Source: Candidatus Tectimicrobiota bacterium
GTDB lineage: Bacteria; JACPUC01
Direction: 5' to 3'
DNA: 64,000 bases
Assembly: GCA_016192455.1 (NCBI GenBank)
Contig: JACPUC010000026.1
Coordinates: forward strand, 1 to 64,000
Every line of letters starts with the position of its first letter. Position 1 is the stretch's first letter. The notes under the pieces were generated by a model. The model had not been told where the DNA came from and ran no database searches. It worked only from the letters and a program-made list of their open reading frames with translations. Positions 5,417 to 61,052 of this stretch are shown in pieces. Position numbers and translations under genes: made by a program.

Positions 5417-7687
5417 ATGACGACCATGAACCTCGAGATGATCGAGAGGGCGTACGCCGAGGTTCCGCAGCGGCTCGCCGGCGCGCGGGCGCTACTGCGC
5501 CGCCCGCTGACCTACGCCGAGAAGGTGCTCTACGCGCATGCCTGGGCGCCGCCGAGCACGCCGTGCCAGCGGGGCGTGGACTACGTGGACTTTCGTCCCG
5601 ACCGCGTCGCCATGCAGGATGCCACCGCCCAGATGGCGCTGCTGCAGTTCATCAGCGCCGGCATCCCGCGCGTGGCCGCACCCACGACGGTGCATTGCGA
5701 CCATCTCATCCAGGCCGAGCACGGCGCCGCCCGCGACCTGCTGGCCGCCGCCGACGCCAACCGCGAGGTGTACGAGTTCCTCGCCTCGGTGTCGCGCAAG
5801 TACGGCATCGGCTTCTGGAAGCCGGGCGCCGGCATCATCCACCAGGTGGTGCTGGAGAACTACGCCTTCCCCGGCGGCATGATGATCGGCACCGATTCGC
5901 ACACGCCGAACGCCGGCGGCCTGGGGATGCTGGCGATCGGCGTCGGCGGCGCCGACGCGGTGGACGTGATGTCGGGCCTGCCGTGGGAGCTGAAGTTCCC
6001 CACTCTCATCGGCGTGCGGCTCACCGGCGCCCTGAGCGGCTGGACCTCCCCGAAGGACGTGATCCTGGCCCTGGCCGGCATCCTCACCGTGAAGGGGGGC
6101 ACGGGCGCCATCGTGGAGTACTTCGGCGACGGCTGCCGCTCCATCTCCGCCACCGGCAAGGGAACCATCTGCAACATGGGGGCGGAGATCGGCGCCACCG
6201 CTTCGGTCTTCCCCTACGACGCCAAGATGCAGGCCTACCTGAAGGCAACGGGCCGCGCCGACGTGGCGGCCCTGGCGGACGCCGTCGCCGAGCACCTGCG
6301 GGCCGACCCGGAAGTCGAGGCCGAGGCGGAGCGCTTCTTCGACAAGGTCATCCACATCGACCTCAGCAGCCTCGAGCCCCACATCAACGGCCCCTTCTCA
6401 CCCGATCGCGCCCATCCCCTGTCGAAGTTCGCCCAGGCCGTGCGGCAGAACGGCTGGCCCGACGAGCTGCGCGCGGCGCTCATCGGCTCGTGCACGAATT
6501 CGAGCTACGAGGATATCGACCGCGTCGCCGCGCTGGCCCGGCAAGCCAAGGCGGCGGGCCTGAAGACCCGCGCCCAGCTCATCATCACGCCGGGCTCCGA
6601 GCAGGTGCGCGCCACCATCGAACGCGATGGCCAGCTTGCGCTCCTGCGGGAGATCGGCGCCAGCGTGCTTGCCAATGCCTGCGGGCCATGCATCGGCCAG
6701 TGGACGCGCCACGACGTGCAGAAAGGGGAGGCGAACTCGATCGTCACCTCCTTCAACCGCAACTTCAGCGGCCGCAACGACGGCAACCCCAACACGCACG
6801 CCTTCGTCGCCAGCCCCGAGACGGTGGCGGCCCTGGCCTTGGCGGGGCGGTTGACGTTCGACTTTCGACGCGACACCCTGCGCCTGGAGGATGGTAGGCA
6901 GGTGCGGCTGGAGCCGCCCAGCGGCGAGGAACTGCCGGAGAAAGGATTCCTGCCCGACCCGGAAGGCTTCGCGCCGCCCGCGGAGGATGGCGCCGAGGTG
7001 AAGATCGTCGTCGATCCGAAGAGCGAGCGGCTGCAGCTCCTGGCGCCGTTCGCGCCGCCCAGGGCGGAGGAGTTCGCGGACCTGGCGGTGCTCCTGAAGG
7101 CAAAGGGCAAGTGCACCACCGACCACATCTCCATGGCCGGGCCCTGGCTGCGCTACCGGGGCCACCTCGACAACATCTCGAACAACCTCCTCATCGGCGC
7201 CACGAACGCCTTCACCAGCGCCACGAACAAGGCGAAGAACCAGCTCGCCGGCGCCTACGACGAGGTGCCGCGGGTGGCGCGCGCCTACAAGGCGGCGAAC
7301 CTGGGGTGGGTGGTCATCGGCGACGAGAACTACGGCGAAGGCTCCAGCCGCGAGCACGCCGCCATGGAGCCGCGCTACCTCGGCGGCAAGGCGATCATCG
7401 TCAAGTCCTTCGCCCGCATCCACGAGGCGAACCTGAAGAAGCAGGGCCTCCTGCCGCTGACCTTCGCCGAGCCGGCGGACTACGAGAAGGTGCGCGAGGA
7501 TGACCGCGTCAGCCTGAACCTGGCCGAGCTGGCCCCCGGCGCGCCGCTGACGATGACCCTGAAGCACAAGGACGGCGCCGTGGAGAGGGTGCGGCTCAAC
7601 CACACCCTGAACGCCCAACAGATCGACTGGTTCCGCGCGGGAAGCGCGCTGAACGCGGTGCGGGGGAAGAGCGCGGGGGGGGAGTGA
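5417..7687 (+). CDS. Aconitate hydratase
   Basis: The 756-residue enzyme interconverts citrate and isocitrate in the TCA cycle. It has the three-domain aconitase core plus the C-terminal swivel domain in one chain, resembling the mitochondrial-type aconitase rather than AcnB. Visible landmarks are the first [4Fe-4S] ligand in [11 protein letters not shown] (about residue 358), the ligand pair in [11 protein letters not shown] (about 421-424), the active-site region [13 protein letters not shown], and the swivel-domain signature [19 protein letters not shown]. The start follows AGGAGAAGG. It stands alone, convergent with the peptidase gene downstream. A possible -10 (TACAAT, 5365-5370) precedes it without a good -35. 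Confidence 0.96.
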
Positions 7688-25067: not shown

Positions 25068-26528
25068 CTATGCCACCGCCGCGAGGATGTCGCGGCTCAT
25101 GCCGCGCTGCGCCAGCCACTTCGGCAGCAACTCCTGCTCGACGCGCCGGATGACCCGCGGCGCGGCCCGACGAAGGTACGCGGCCAGCGACTCCGAGACG
25201 TTCATCCCCATGCTGGCGCCGTCGAAGATGATCACCTTGTCGGTCTTGGCGGTGCGGTAGGCGAAGTCCATCGCCGTTTCCAGCGTGTCGGCGATCATGG
25301 CGTGCTTCATGTACTCCATGTTCTGCGGGTCGCGGTTGAAGAGGTCCGCCTGCTCGCGCCCGACGACGATCGTCGGCGTGTTCTTCGAGAAGAAGACGCA
25401 GGGGTAACCGCCGAAGGCGTAGTTGTGCACCACCATCTTCAGCGCCGGGTTCACCGGCGGGATGTCCGGCAGCAGCTTCTTGCCGCTGCGCGTGTAGTAG
25501 GACTCGGTGTAGAAGGTGTACGGCGGCAGCGGCACGTCGAGGTCGAAGAGGTCCACGTTGGCGTCGATCATGTTGGCGTAAATGGTGCCGCCGGCAAAGA
25601 CGTAGGGGATGGGCCCGGGGAAGTCGAGGATGCAGATGCACTCGTCGATCTCGCCGAAGAGGTTGACGAGCTTGCTGTAGTACTTCAGCCCTATGGCGTT
25701 GACGCGTTCATCGATGGCGTAGAGGTTATTCTCGGCATCAACGCTGAGGATGCCGTAGGGCGACATCTGCAGGAAGACGGCGAAGGCGAACTTCTTCTGC
25801 ACGAAATCGCTGTCGAAGATGGCGCGGGCGACGAAGTTCGAGGCGCGGGGGCCGAGGTTCTGATGGTAGCACGAGCGCGTCTCGATGCGCGCGTACGACA
25901 TGCCGAAGGGCTTCACGGCGCGGTCGAGCTGGCGGTGGAAGTGGATCTCGCGCACGTCGCTGTTGTGCGTGTGCACGATCCAGTCGGCGTTGTAGGCCTG
26001 CGCCAGGCCGTAGAGGCGGCCGATCACCGTGTCGATGGCAACGCCGCGGTCGATGGGGCTGATGTTCGTCGCCTGGCCTTCGAAGTAGTCATCCAGGCCG
26101 TGCAGCTTGATGTACTCCTCGGACTCGCGGAAGCGCAGGCCGACGCCGGCGCGCAGGCGCACCTTGCGCGTGCCGGTGCGCTCGATGATGACGTCGCGCA
26201 GGGTGCGCAGCATTTCCGCATAGGGACCGCCCCCCAGCAGCGTGAAGCCGTGGTGCGAGGCCAGGAGGTTCACCGTGTGCCCCGGCTTGATCATGCCGAG
26301 GTCGACGTTCTCCAAGGCGCGCACGGTCGCCTCGCGGATGGCCGCCAGGCCGTCGCGGCCGTCCCCTTCGCTGCGCGGGTAGATGACCGGCGGCGCTTCG
26401 GGGAAGAGCTCGGCGATGCCGACCGAGGTGATCCCCGGCAGCTCGCAGCCCCGCATCTTGACCAGGGCCGGATCAATGCCGTACTGCGACTTGCGGGGCT
26501 TTGCCGGCGGCAAGGGTTGGCGTGTCAT
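25068..26528 (-). CDS. LarA-like (lactate racemase superfamily) protein, divergent
   Basis: 486 residues. I align it by eye with LarA: RAGVGLRFRESEEYIKLHG matches the GFHRPSTHEELVNKYG region, EIHFHRQLDRAVKPFG matches the ESHFFAGFSGGRKSVLPG region, and the end TLETAMDFAYRTAKTDKVII matches TLDEAMEKAYAREGQAAKV. In LarA the first region holds a catalytic His that is Arg here, while the second-region His and a Lys at the expected place remain. So the nickel-pincer chemistry may be altered or the family assignment distant. The ATG at 26528 follows AGAGGGGG and lies two bases after the ferredoxin stop; the cytochrome gene follows by eight bases. Cytoplasmic, no signal peptide. Confidence 0.55.
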   Translation of the reverse strand: MTRQPLPPAKPRKSQYGIDPALVKMRGCELPGITSVGIAELFPEAPPVIYPRSEGDGRDGLAAIREATVRALENVDLGMIKPGHTVNLLASHHGFTLLGGGPYAEMLRTLRDVIIERTGTRKVRLRAGVGLRFRESEEYIKLHGLDDYFEGQATNISPIDRGVAIDTVIGRLYGLAQAYNADWIVHTHNSDVREIHFHRQLDRAVKPFGMSYARIETRSCYHQNLGPRASNFVARAIFDSDFVQKKFAFAVFLQMSPYGILSVDAENNLYAIDERVNAIGLKYYSKLVNLFGEIDECICILDFPGPIPYVFAGGTIYANMIDANVDLFDLDVPLPPYTFYTESYYTRSGKKLLPDIPPVNPALKMVVHNYAFGGYPCVFFSKNTPTIVVGREQADLFNRDPQNMEYMKHAMIADTLETAMDFAYRTAKTDKVIIFDGASMGMNVSESLAAYLRRAAPRVIRRVEQELLPKWLAQRGMSRDILAAVA

Positions 26529-26530
26529 GG

Positions 26531-27145
26531 TTAGACCCCCTCTCGGCTGGCGCGCAGCGTTTGGTTCAGCAGCGCCAGGTCCTCTTCGAAGCGGAACCGC
26601 GGGTGCTGCTCCCGAACCGCCTGCGGAATTTCCCAGGCGGTGATGCAGTCGGAGTACCACTGGTAGCCTTTGCCCGGTGGCTTGCCGAAGTCGCGTCCGG
26701 CGGCGCGGAGCATGCGCATCATCGGCTGGCAGCACTCCACGCCGCAGCCGGTCAAGGTGCCGGTGAGGCGGGAAAGGTCGCCGGGGTTTTGCGCCCCCTC
26801 GAGCACCGCCGCTGCCAGCTCGTCGGCGCGTGTGCCGGTGCAGAAGCAGACGATCTGCTCCGGGTTGATCTTGGCCCGGGCGCAGAGCGCCTCGATCTCC
26901 TCCCGGTTGTACTTGCCGGCGTCGAGGCCGATGGTGTACGGCTCCACGGGCACCATGTCGATGCAGCGCTCCGGGCAGCGCTGCTCGCAGTTCCAGCAGC
27001 CAGGACAGTGCGTCTCGTCGATGACCGGCAGCAGACGGTCTCGTTTCTCCATCGTAATCGCCAGGGTCGGGCAGACGTGGGCGCAGATGGCGCAGCCCGT
27101 ACATTCATCCGCCCGCACTTTGGCTACCAGATTGACCACACGCAT
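26531..27145 (-). CDS. Ferredoxin with two [4Fe-4S] motifs plus BFD-like [2Fe-2S] domain
   Basis: 204 residues. The N-terminal part has two cluster-binding cysteine sets, CTGCAICAHVCP (about 16-27) and CPGCWNCEQRCP (about 48-59), typical of bacterial 2x[4Fe-4S] ferredoxins. The middle part contains VCFCTGTRADEL and, about 30 residues later, TGCGVECCQP. That CxC...CxxxC arrangement is like the BFD-type [2Fe-2S] domain found in electron-transfer proteins and nitrite-reductase partners. The C-terminal 50 residues are unfamiliar. The ATG at 27145 follows GGGGAG; the track's longer start lacks this. First gene of the minus-strand operon and the likely electron carrier for its partners. Confidence 0.85.
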   Translation of the reverse strand: MRVVNLVAKVRADECTGCAICAHVCPTLAITMEKRDRLLPVIDETHCPGCWNCEQRCPERCIDMVPVEPYTIGLDAGKYNREEIEALCARAKINPEQIVCFCTGTRADELAAAVLEGAQNPGDLSRLTGTLTGCGVECCQPMMRMLRAAGRDFGKPPGKGYQWYSDCITAWEIPQAVREQHPRFRFEEDLALLNQTLRASREGV

Positions 27146-27230
27146 GCTGATCTCCCCTTGAACGCCGGGTTGGGAGAACACCTCGCTAGAGTGAGTGACT
27201 TCCTCGGCTACTCCCCCGACTTGCATCAGG

Positions 27231-27405: not shown

Positions 27406-27535
27406 AGGCGGAGGTCGTCCCGAGGGGCGCCGCGGCAGGGCTCGTGCTTGCCCCAGGCGGAGGCGAGTGGAGAGCCACGAACGTATGGGAAGCTGGGACG
27501 AGAGCCAGCCCCATCATGCAGGCGGGAGGAGAGCC

Positions 27536-28174
27536 ATGAAGCCGGAAGATATCTATGCCCGCTTTGGGATCGGCACGCAGCGCGTTGGTTTCGGCAACAC
27601 GCCGGCCATCCTCGTCATTGACATGCAGCGCGACTTCTTCGACGAGAACGCCTCCACCGGCGGCGTGGAGACGGCGGCCCACGGCCCCATCGCCAAGCTC
27701 CTCGAGGCGGCGCGCACCGCCGGCGTCCACGTCATCTACACCCAGCAGGGGCACCGCGACGACATGGCCGACGGACCCCGCTGGGTCGACAAGTTCCCCG
27801 GCTTGAAGCGCGGCGGCCTGCGCACCGGCAGCACGGGCGCGCAGATCGTCCACGAGCTGGCGCCGCAGCAGGGGGACTACGTGGTTGAGAAGCGCCGCCC
27901 TAGCGGCTTTTTCCAGACCGACCTCGACCTCTACCTGCGCTCCCTCGGCGTGGATACGGTCATCGTCACCGGCTGCACCACCAGCGGCTGCGTGCGGGCG
28001 ACGGCGGTGGACGCCTTCTCGTACAACTACCGCGTCATCGTGCCGCGCGAGTGCGTCGCCGACCGCGCCCCGGAGCCGACCGAGGCGAACCTCTTCGACA
28101 TCAACATGAAGTACGGCGACGTGCTAAAGCTTGCTGAGGTGCTCGACTACCTGAAGGCCCTCAAGAAGAGCTAA
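27536..28174 (+). CDS. Isochorismatase-fold hydrolase (cysteine amidase type)
   Basis: 212 residues. The cysteine-hydrolase triad is visible: Asp in AILVIDMQRDFF (about residue 27), Lys in VEKRRPSGFFQTDLDLYLRS (about 120) and the nucleophile Cys in IVTGCTTSGCVRATAVDA (about 150-155). This superfamily includes N-carbamoylsarcosine amidase, nicotinamidase, ureidoacrylate amidase and isochorismatase. The CTTSGCVRA motif is shared with N-carbamoylsarcosine amidase but also with many uncharacterised members. The ATG follows GGGAGGAG. It is the first gene before the GrdE-like and GrdB-like genes; an amidase releasing an amine or acid for the reductase is a reasonable but unproven idea. Confidence 0.88.
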   Translation: MKPEDIYARFGIGTQRVGFGNTPAILVIDMQRDFFDENASTGGVETAAHGPIAKLLEAARTAGVHVIYTQQGHRDDMADGPRWVDKFPGLKRGGLRTGSTGAQIVHELAPQQGDYVVEKRRPSGFFQTDLDLYLRSLGVDTVIVTGCTTSGCVRATAVDAFSYNYRVIVPRECVADRAPEPTEANLFDINMKYGDVLKLAEVLDYLKALKKS

Positions 28175-28223: not shown

Positions 28224-29492
28224 GTGAGACTGGAGCTGCACCACCACCAAGTCAGCGGCATCAGCTTCGGCGAGGCGACCGGGCTCGGCGCCGGAATGCT
28301 GACGATCAACCGCGAGGAGCTGAGCGCGCTGCTGTTGGCCGACGAGCGCCTTGCGGCGGTCTCCTTCGACCTCGCCGCGCCCGGCGAGGACTGCCGGATC
28401 ATCCAGGTCTGGGATGTGGTCGAGGCGCGCTACCGCGGCGACGGCGCGAACTTCCCCGGCATCCTGGGACCAATCGAGGCGGTGGGACGCGGCGTGACGC
28501 ATACCCTGAAAGGGATGGGCGTCGTCATCACCAATCCCTCGTCCAGGGGACCGGAGGCGAAGGTGATCGACATGGCCGGCCTGGGCGCCGAGTGGGGACT
28601 CTACGGCCGGCTGCATCACCTCGTCGTGCAGCCGCAACCCGCCCCCGGCCTGCCGGCCCCGGAGCTCCTCTACGCCCTGCGCAAGGCCCAGGTGGCCGCC
28701 GCTGTTTACCTGGCGCGGGCAGCCGCCGCCGCGCGCGCCGATGAAGTCGAGGTGTTCGACCTGCCCCCCCTCGGCAGCCGCCCCGACGCGGACTCCGGCC
28801 TGCCGCGCGTCGCCTACGTCTTCCAGATTCACTCCCACCAGCGCCCCACCGAGGACGCCGAGCCGGTCCTCTACGGCAACAACGTGCGCAACTTCCTGCC
28901 GACCATCCTGCACCCCAACGAGGTGCTCGACGGCGCCCTGGTGCGCTCGTACTACCGCAAGGGGTTCGAGACCTACACGGTGCAGAACCACCCGATCATC
29001 AGGGAGATGTACGCGCGCCACGGCAAGGAGCTGGAGTTCGCCGGCGTCGTCGCCACGGTGGCGCACCAGACCGAGCCGGAACGCCTGCAGAGCGCGGCGA
29101 TGGCGGCGAACCTGGTGGCCGAGGTGCTGGGCGCGAACGGCGCGGTGCTCACCAAGACCGGCGGCGGCGCGCCGCACATCGACATGGCGCAGATTGCCGA
29201 ACTGCTCGAAGCACGCGGCGTGGCGACGGTGATGATGGCCATGGACATGTCGGTTGACGGCAGCGCGGAGGGGGGCTCGCTCTTCAGCTTCCCCGGCGCC
29301 GACGCCATCGTCAACTACGGCTTTTCCCCCTCGCCCCTGGCGCTCCCCCCCGCCGCGCGCATCATCGGCGGAGCGCCGGAGACGCTCGTTTACGGCCGCC
29401 CGGCCAGCGGCGCCATCGAGGTCGATCTCGAGGTCCTCGCCGGCGCCGAGAACCCCATCGGCGCCAACCGCGTCATGGCGGCGCACTATTGA
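28224..29492 (+). CDS. GrdE-like protein (glycine/sarcosine/betaine reductase component B alpha/beta family) without pyruvoyl cysteine
   Basis: 422 residues from GTG 28224 after GAGGAAGG. The whole protein follows the GrdE proprotein: MRLELHHHQVSGISFGEATG, LTINREELSALLL, DLAAPGEDCRIIQVWDVVEARY, QNHPIIREMYARHGKELEF, LGANGAVLTKTGGG and NPIGANRVMAAHY. In known reductases this chain is cut at an internal cysteine that becomes the pyruvoyl group binding the substrate amine. Here the only cysteine is near residue 56, and the region that should hold the pyruvoyl cysteine reads GVVATVAHQTEPERLQ. So it probably stays uncleaved and without the cofactor. It is followed by the GrdB-like selenoprotein gene after a repeat element. 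Confidence 0.85.
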   Translation: MRLELHHHQVSGISFGEATGLGAGMLTINREELSALLLADERLAAVSFDLAAPGEDCRIIQVWDVVEARYRGDGANFPGILGPIEAVGRGVTHTLKGMGVVITNPSSRGPEAKVIDMAGLGAEWGLYGRLHHLVVQPQPAPGLPAPELLYALRKAQVAAAVYLARAAAAARADEVEVFDLPPLGSRPDADSGLPRVAYVFQIHSHQRPTEDAEPVLYGNNVRNFLPTILHPNEVLDGALVRSYYRKGFETYTVQNHPIIREMYARHGKELEFAGVVATVAHQTEPERLQSAAMAANLVAEVLGANGAVLTKTGGGAPHIDMAQIAELLEARGVATVMMAMDMSVDGSAEGGSLFSFPGADAIVNYGFSPSPLALPPAARIIGGAPETLVYGRPASGAIEVDLEVLAGAENPIGANRVMAAHY

Positions 29493-29544
29493 GCGGTGCG
29501 CATTGACGTGGCGCGTCGAGCAGCAGGCTGATTTTTTCTTTGGT

Positions 29545-29636
29545 GGGGAATCATTGATCCCCCACACCCCCTCTCCGCGCGAGCTGCACAGCAGCTCGCG
29601 TAGTCGGGGTGCGCGAGGGGACGAGGTTCCCTCGCA
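29545..29636. repeat. Intergenic palindromic repeat, copy A
   Basis: This 92-base block recurs, about 80 percent identical by eye, at 60959-61052. It contains TCATTGATCCCCCACACCCC, an inner hairpin (GCGAGCTG with CAGCTCGC) and GGGGTGCGCGAGGGG...CCCTCGCA. It lies between the grdE-like and grdB-like genes, which are otherwise expected to be adjacent. Confidence 0.75.
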
Positions 29637-29667
29637 GACAAAAAACGATCTCCCGAAAGGCCGCACC

Positions 29668-31008
29668 ATGGCAGGCCCTTTGCGCATCGTTCACTACCTC
29701 AACCAGTTCTTCGGGCAGCTCGGCGGCGAGGAGGCGGCGGGCGCGGCGCCGCAAGCGCGCGACGGCGCCATCGGGCCGGGGCTGGCGATCGTGAAGCTGC
29801 TGGAACAGCGGCGCTGCGAAAGCGGCGAACTTGCGGCCGAAGTGGTCGGCACGGTCATCTGCGGCGACAACTACTTCATCGAGACGCCGACCGCCGGCGA
29901 CGAGGTCTTTGCGCTCATCGCCCCCTATCGCCCGCGGCTCCTCATCGCCGGGCCGGCGTTCAACGCGGGGCGCTACGGCATCGCCTGCGCGGCGGTCTGC
30001 AAGATGATCGGCGACAAGCTCGGCATCCCCGCAGTCACCGGCATGCACGAGGAGAACCCCGGCGTCGACATGTACCGCCGGGACGTCGTCATCGTGCGCA
30101 GCGGCGCGAGCGCCCGCGCCATGCTCCCCACGATGGAGCGCATGTTGACGGTGGCGCTGAAGCTGGTGCGCGGCGAAGCGCTCGCTCCGGCCCGCCTGGA
30201 GGGCACCTTCGCCCAGGGCCGCGTGCGCAACGAGCTGGCCGCCGAGACCGGCGCGCGGCGCGCCGTCGCCATGCTCCTAGCCAAGCTGCGCGGTGAAACG
30301 CCGACCACGGAGCTGGAGCTGCCGCGCTTCGAGAAGGTGCGTCCGGCGCCCGCCATCGTGGACCTCACGACCGCCACCATCGCTCTGGTGACGGACGGCG
30401 GCCTCGTCCCCCTGGGAAACCCCGACGGCATCGAGTCCATCTCGGCGACGAAGTTCGGCGTCTACGACATCGGCGGCGCCGAGCGTCTCGAAGCGTCGCG
30501 CTACGAGTCAGTGCACCGCGGCTACGACGTGCGCTACGTGAACGCCGACCCCCAGCGCCTGCTGCCGGTGGATGTGCTGCGCGAGCTGGAGCGCGACAAG
30601 CGCATCGGCAGGCTGCACCCGCGCTTCTACTCGACGACCGGCGTCGCCACGACGCTGCGCAACAGCCGCGCCCTCGGTGCCGCCATGGCGGAGCGCCTGC
30701 GATCGGAGGGGGTGCAGGCGGTCATCCTCACCTCGACGTGAGGCACGAGCACCCGCTGCGGCGCAGCGATCGCCAAGGAACTCGAACGCGCCGGCCTGCC
30801 GACGGCGCAGGTCTGCACCATGACGCCGGTGGCCAAGACCGTCGGCTCGCCGCGCATTGTTCCCGCCGCCGGCATCGTCCACCCGCTGGGCAACGCCCAG
30901 GCCACGCCGGAGGCTGAGCAGAAGCTGCGGCGCGACATCATCCGGCGCGCTCTCCAGGCCCTGCAAGCCGACGTGACGGAGAGCACCGTCTTTCCCGCGC
31001 AGAGCTAG
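29668..31008 (+). CDS. GrdB-like selenoprotein (component B gamma family), TGA read as selenocysteine
   Basis: 447 codons, 446 residues, with an in-frame TGA at 30739-30741 as codon 358. The track stops there and lists the rest as a separate ORF (30820..31008), but the frame continues without another stop to TAG 31006. The protein matches GrdB along its length: IVHYLNQFFGQLGGEE, VGTVICGDNYFIE, LIAGPAFNAGRYGIACAAV, GIPAVTGMHEENPGVDMYRR, then VQAVILTSTUGTSTRCGAAI and MTPVAKTVGSPRIVPAAGI. Canonical GrdB has U in TSTUGTCTRCGA at nearly the same position (about 350 of 436). One change is the Cys three residues after U, which is Ser here; the later Cys is kept. A hairpin follows the TGA. In known reductases this Sec attacks the substrate carbon. 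Start follows AAAGG. Confidence 0.9.
30739..30768 (+). promoter_or_regulatory. Selenocysteine UGA and candidate bacterial SECIS hairpin
   Basis: Twelve bases after TGA, CGCTGC and GCAGCG form a perfect 6-bp stem (30754-30768) closed by the triloop GGC, with a G as the first loop base. In E. coli fdhF the minimal SELB-binding hairpin starts about 11 bases after UGA and needs a G near the start of the loop, so position and apex fit. Confidence 0.65.
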
Positions 31009-60892: not shown

Positions 60893-60958
60893 CCTCTTGT
60901 TCCCAACACAGCCCCTCGGCATCCTGCGTAAACAGCAAAGCCCGAGAACGTTTGTCCT

Positions 60959-61052
60959 GGGGGATCATTGATCCCCCACACCCCCTCCTTACGCGAGTGC
61001 GCATGGCGCACTCGCGGGGACGGGGTGCGCGAGGGGGCATTGCTCCCTCGCA
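60959..61052. repeat. Intergenic palindromic repeat, copy B
   Basis: This 94-base block matches copy A at 29545-29636: GGGGGATCATTGATCCCCC (an outer palindrome), CACACCCCCTC, an inner hairpin GCGAGTGCGC with GCGCACTCGC, then CGGGGTGCGCGAGGG...CCCTCGCA. The inner arms differ from copy A but keep pairing, which suggests selection on the fold. Confidence 0.75.

Follow-up and report, generated by a model that had tools for sequence, protein, structure and literature searches.

A GrdE-like protein without the pyruvoyl cysteine next to a selenocysteine-encoding grdB in a Candidatus Tectimicrobiota genome

The grdE–grdB locus and its genomic setting

The window, i.e., the whole stretch of 64,000 nucleotides analyzed here, carries a grdE-like gene separated by 175 nt from a downstream grdB-like selenoprotein gene, and, 49 nt before grdE and in the same orientation, an amidohydrolase gene (Table 1). 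With a GC3 of 0.92, the grdE-like reading frame is real, and its product belongs to the GrdE/PrdA family: in a Pfam profile search it matched PF09338 with 303 bits (cut-off 22.2) over positions 1–424 of 426. The protein has exactly one cysteine, as an initial annotation of this DNA had claimed, at residue 57 (previously given as about 56). This Cys57 is common to five of the nine other members of the clade formed by the window protein, its nearest relatives, and FarE of fluoroacetate reductase, and is replaced by Val in the other four. An AlphaFold2 model (pLDDT 87, pTM 0.90) had no usable fold match in the PDB with Foldseek (best E 7.5e-3, TM 0.20), and hence gave no structural template for the cleavage site. 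Searching the PDB by sequence for solved GrdE/PrdA relatives yielded one chance match (E 0.25) when the single sequence was used and no match when a profile was, and the window GrdB retrieved just a weak FabH match (E 0.03).

Table 1 Features of the grdE–grdB locus, in window positions
Feature	Position	Strand	Basis
Isochorismatase-fold amidohydrolase	27530..28174	+	PF00857; PDB 26st 1.6e-38, 1nba 1e-35
grdE-like gene, 422 aa, GTG start; predicted component B alpha subunit of uncleaved type	28224..29492	+	intact ORF; PF09338 3.4e-90, full length
Cys57, sole Cys in window GrdE	28392..28394	+	residue count and clade alignment
Residues 236-254 (DGALVRSYYRKGFETYTVQ), homologous to the pyruvoyl cleavage site	28929..28985	+	alignments of 47, 100 and 67 sequences
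Tyr244, position of the Cys in GrdE/PrdA	28953-28955	+	same alignments
Residues 274-289 (GVVATVAHQTEPERLQ, including GVVATVAHQ), previously taken for the cleavage site	29043..29090	+	alignment
grdB-like selenoprotein gene, 446 aa, catalytic partner	29668-31008	+	PF07355 434.6 bits; TIGR01918 501 bits
TGA codon 358, selenocysteine (U358), motif TSTUGTSTRCG, UxxS not UxxC	30739..30741	+	homologue comparison; tRNA-Sec and SelB in genome
Possible SECIS hairpin, 6-bp stem, GGC loop	30754..30768	+	folding

The GrdB-like partner scored 501 bits against TIGR01918 (cut-off 65) and contains an in-frame TGA within a conserved STUG motif. Since the genome also encodes a tRNA-Sec (75.5 bits) and SelB (366 bits), selenocysteine (Sec) is the natural reading of codon 358, and the earlier statement that the partner keeps Sec holds. 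The codon is followed by 88 homologous residues, and the same TGA occurs in every readable homologue. The resolving Cys of the UxxC motif is absent from the window GrdB (UGTS), as it is from FarB and most of the window clade. A possible SECIS hairpin after the TGA was no more stable than shuffled sequence (z 0.1 to 0.9).

The gap between grdE and grdB contains an interspersed repeat (window 29544-29640), pieces of which turn up again at window 60958-61036, close to the tRNA-Sec locus (L014), within L012, and in the intergenic gap of a further grdE–grdB pair (L010 8976-9030). Short PrdB-like genes on contigs C30 and C25 (L011 6601-7539 and L012 6600-7487) each have one TGA at the Sec position, and are thus further candidate selenoproteins of this genome. 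Divergent from the amidohydrolase gene lies a gene for a 478-residue protein (window 25068-26504, minus strand) without Pfam or NCBIfam match; its neighbor (26534-27226) encodes a ferredoxin-like protein in which 4Fe-4S and BFD domains were recognized.

The genome also encodes a TGA-containing GrdA (192.6 bits, contig C1) adjoined by GrdC (646 bits, cut-off 450), on another contig than the window grdE and grdB. In clade members L024, L025, L028, and L146, grdA and grdC lie beside grdE/grdB. GrdD was not found in the window genome with one query; this query matches other GrdDs at 46–57% identity, and an ordinary GrdD should therefore have been picked up, although the genome is 88% complete. At the grdA–grdC locus of contig C1 (L022 9818-11852), the two genes stand together without grdD, and the Cys-less clusters L024, L025, L030, L031, L139-L141, and L146 likewise have grdC and grdA and no grdD nearby. 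Given this absence near several Cys-less clusters and the negative search of the window genome, acetyl phosphate may not be what these systems finally produce.

Loss of the site cysteine across the GrdE family

To place the cleavage site, the window GrdE was aligned with 99 homologues. The pyruvoyl Cys corresponds to residue 243 of homologue L034 (SGNC-VSACDKN), a numbering consistent with C. difficile GrdE, where the pyruvoyl peptide labelled by hydrazine starts at residue 242 (PMC9908766). In nearly all Cys-bearing members this Cys lies eight residues past the Asp of a nearly invariant Asp-Gly, with DGAIVSGNC-VSACDKNTTY as the typical site. In the window protein the site reads DGALVRSYYRKG, then, after a gap, TY: Tyr244 occupies the Cys column, the three residues directly past it are missing (as in most of the nearest relatives), and both the SGNC-VSAC cleavage motif and its spacing are gone. 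The initial annotation had placed the site about 30 residues too far downstream; its observation that the site has no Cys is nonetheless right at the correct position, and well above chance. Serine, which it had named as another residue able to form pyruvoyl, was absent from the site column across the 100 homologues.

The D-proline reductase PrdA/PrdB provides a more distant comparison. The PrdA site (DGCIHALTC) has a Cys at the same spacing, which aligns exactly with the GrdE Cys, so that Cys is the ancestral state; unlike the window protein, PrdA is a longer, processed proprotein, and PrdA/PrdB does not involve GrdA/GrdC chemistry. In L149, L150, and L152, the PrdD/PrdE-like genes are broken into two ORFs, and the break falls exactly at the cleavage site, the first ORF ending in ...YRDGAIRAMT and the next starting with MGIGPSTKE...

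We next asked how common this loss is. The homologue set combined 47 loci from named genomes with whole-genome finds, giving 100 distinct GrdE-family proteins once duplicates were removed. Overall, 51 had the site Cys and 49 did not, the latter displaying Tyr (30), Trp (5), Phe (5), Arg (3), Thr (2), or single other residues. The 47 named loci were picked with patterns of the Cys-less paralogues of the window genome and are biased accordingly; a fairer figure comes from a sample of 395 genomes, where 12 of 21 proteins had the site Cys and 9 lacked it. All three GrdE paralogues of the window genome are Cys-less. The loss is thus no oddity of this locus and is shared by about half of the sampled relatives.

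The Sec codon, by comparison, was kept throughout: all 85 readable GrdB partners carried the Sec TGA, 37 beside a Cys-bearing GrdE and 48 beside a Cys-less one. The suggested constant pairing of Cys-less GrdE-like proteins with Sec-GrdB is thereby borne out for every readable pair in the sample (48/48). With GrdB Sec kept across the sample and the GrdE pyruvoyl Cys lost twice (see below), the two special residues of component B are separable, indicating that its Sec chemistry is independent of the GrdE pyruvoyl.

Two further arrangements were seen among these loci. In Pyramidobacter (L143), a Sec-containing FarB adjoins FarE, and upstream (5818-6636) there is a further GrdB-like C-terminal half, which has Cys at the Sec position. 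A Cys-less clade from clostridia and spirochaetes (SGNYVWPAFKVPTY; L053-L058, L061-L064, L066-L068, and L070) keeps both Sec and UxxC, and the member scanned (L055) fell under all NCBIfam substrate cut-offs, suggesting another uncharacterised specificity.

On a GrdE tree computed with the site columns omitted and rooted on PrdA, the Cys was lost at least twice, as the tree needs two changes. One loss affects a betaine clade (L100/L101/L128/L131) nested among Cys-bearing proteins and identified through the partner of L101, which scored 845 bits against GrdH (cut-off 775). The other lies at the base of a wholly Cys-less branch of 36 members (support 84/99), which holds the window protein, the other two paralogues, FarE (L143, 932.6 bits, cut-off 675), a clostridial Tyr clade, and proteins from Desulfovibrio piger and Entotheonella. 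Within this branch, the window clade (L024-L029, L121, L122) is sister to FarE, the two forming a set of ten rows with support 98/94. In an independent GrdB tree, a single branch (88/95) again set these ten rows apart from the others, and the window clade and FarB have UxxS in common in place of UxxC. The long branch of FarE calls for caution, as its sister position may in part be an artefact.

Relation to known component B systems

The combination of a Cys-less GrdE with a Sec-GrdB is a variant that has already been described: Leong et al. (2023) reported that FarE has no cysteines for pyruvoyl formation and, like GrdI, is not a pro-protein, and that CxxC is missing from FarB (PMC10838667). 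This account also bears on the initial premise that betaine reductase depends on a pyruvoyl group, which does not stand: the GrdI clade has Phe at the site and GrdH as its partner, in agreement with Leong et al. (PMC10838667). No paper on the window clade was found in the literature searched. The window pair adds a new, uncharacterised member to a Cys-less variant that is real but already known in part. What the present analysis contributes is the size of the Cys-less group, the count of two losses, the presence of Sec in every readable partner, and the placement of the window clade with FarE/FarB.

Among known systems, the fluoroacetate reductase FarE/FarB of Synergistota (PMC10838667; NCBIfam NF053623) shares with the window pair a Cys-less GrdE, a Sec-GrdB without the UxxC Cys, the sister position in both gene trees, and a function together with GrdA/GrdC, which for the window pair is predicted. 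The two probably differ in substrate, the operon partners FarA and FarC are not shared, and the window GrdE reaches 187 bits on the FarE model (cut-off 675) and 32% identity to FarE. The betaine reductase GrdI/GrdH similarly combines a Cys-less subunit that is not a pro-protein (Phe at the site in our sample) with a Sec-containing one, but GrdI lost its Cys separately, GrdH keeps UxxC, and the window GrdB reaches 455 on the GrdH model (cut-off 775). Finally, glycine reductase GrdE/GrdB and sarcosine reductase GrdG/GrdF have the same two-gene component B, the same STUG Sec motif, and GrdA/GrdC acting downstream, as predicted for the window pair, whereas the window pair has neither the Cys-derived pyruvoyl (SGNC-VSAC) nor UxxC.

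A predicted pyruvoyl-free component B and competing explanations

In glycine reductase, the carboxymethyl group of X-CH2-COO- is taken up by the GrdB Sec and handed to GrdA, and the acetyl thioester that results is passed to GrdC. We estimate a probability of roughly two in three that the window pair is an uncleaved, pyruvoyl-free component B passing the carboxymethyl group of X-CH2-COO- to GrdA without a pyruvoyl Schiff base. Under this reading, the GrdE subunit would stay uncleaved and carry no pyruvoyl group, the GrdB Sec would attack a small X-CH2-COO- compound at its alpha carbon and expel X, and the carboxymethyl group would move to selenoprotein A (GrdA), its reduction giving an acetyl thioester on GrdC. 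Binding of the substrate and activation of its leaving group would both proceed without a pyruvoyl imine, i.e., activation would come from elsewhere or be needless. The site without Cys or Ser, the Sec codon, GrdA and GrdC in the genome, and the sister position to FarE in the Cys-less branch are observed; the lack of GrdE cleavage, the carboxymethyl transfer, and the substrate class are inferred. Points that weigh against this reading are the long branch of FarE, the GrdD not found, the location of grdA and grdC on another contig, and the amidohydrolase as a hint at an amine substrate.

The initial annotation had proposed Sec chemistry without Schiff-base substrate binding. Its first half stands in a narrower form: with no pyruvoyl precursor, no Ser, and Sec kept, the chemistry would proceed without this particular pyruvoyl. 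Loss of Schiff-base binding as such need not follow: in Andreesen's model, as cited in PMC9908766, glycine binds a carbonyl in GrdB and the GrdE pyruvoyl is accessory. The two Cys-less groups whose substrates are known, GrdI and FarE, act on compounds unable to form an imine (betaine with its quaternary N, fluoroacetate with no N), so that betaine reductase and fluoroacetate reductase must likewise manage without one. Sec without pyruvoyl bears on an old open question, the role of the GrdE pyruvoyl, and the window clade offers predicted pyruvoyl-free proteins for a direct test, with compounds unable to form an imine as a guide to substrates.

Kinship with FarE points to a non-amine acid, opposite to the hint at an amine given by the amidohydrolase. 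Flanking transporters (TRAP, SSF, MFS) and enzymes vary across the window clade, and synteny indicates no consistent substrate. The amine side of this conflict underlies the alternative that survives best, which we nevertheless regard as unlikely: a reductase of sarcosine or a similar N-substituted glycine, in which the amidohydrolase would free sarcosine from N-carbamoylsarcosine for reduction by GrdEB, and any carbonyl needed would sit in GrdB, or none would be needed. The nearest solved relatives of the upstream gene product are N-carbamoylsarcosine amidohydrolases, two of which it matches over its full length, and a second Cys-less pair in the window genome comes after HyuA/HyuB hydantoinase-family genes. 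Together, HyuA/HyuB and the amidohydrolase would fit the route of Clostridium FS41 from N-methylhydantoin through N-carbamoylsarcosine to sarcosine and sarcosine reductase (PMC4417704). However, the amidohydrolase occurs beside no other clade member examined, its fold also includes maleamate and biuret amidases, and the scores of the window proteins fall far from the sarcosine models (GrdE 195 vs a GrdG cut-off of 780, GrdB 508 vs a GrdF cut-off of 800). The Ser of STUG, proposed as an alternative carbonyl (PMC10838667), is present in the window GrdB and would suit an amine reductase. As a general substitute for pyruvoyl, this Ser (converted to formylglycine) was rejected, being replaced by Ala, Gly, or Thr in 15 of 50 motifs beside a Cys-less GrdE.

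Less probable again is a FarBE-type reductive dehalogenase, with Sec displacing halide from a 2-haloacetate. The sister position to FarE (98/94), the grouping with FarB in the GrdB tree, and the common UxxS all favor it, as does an oxalate/formate-lactate type MFS transporter directly 3' of grdB in clade member L145, the subfamily reported for the transporter FarA (PMC10838667). Against this, the window GrdE is far from FarE in both model score (187 vs 675) and identity (32%), no radical-SAM FarC was seen beside the window pair, and the transporters of the clade differ.

Pyruvoyl groups can arise from Ser in other enzymes, and a carbonyl cofactor might be formed in GrdE at some other residue, or through the action of a different enzyme. 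Ser242 lies two residues ahead of the site, but its position varies within the clade (P, S, W, T, A, R), there is no clade-wide Cys, Ser, or Thr column nearby, and the SGNC-VSAC motif and its spacing are lost, making this reading improbable. A decaying, inactive copy, suggested by the missing cofactor residue, is the most improbable of all, as the residues that hardly vary across the family are retained, neither ORF is interrupted except by the Sec codon, and the Cys-less state is common to all three paralogues and the whole clade.

Beyond the uncleaved, pyruvoyl-free component B predicted for the window pair, a wider and tentative proposal is that a broad, largely unrecognised branch of pyruvoyl-free Sec reductases, spread over several phyla of bacteria from soil, groundwater, and sediment, might cleave the C-X bond of non-amine X-CH2-COO- compounds. 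FarBE would then be one tip of this branch and the window pair a separate specificity, its substrate possibly halogenated or otherwise non-amine.
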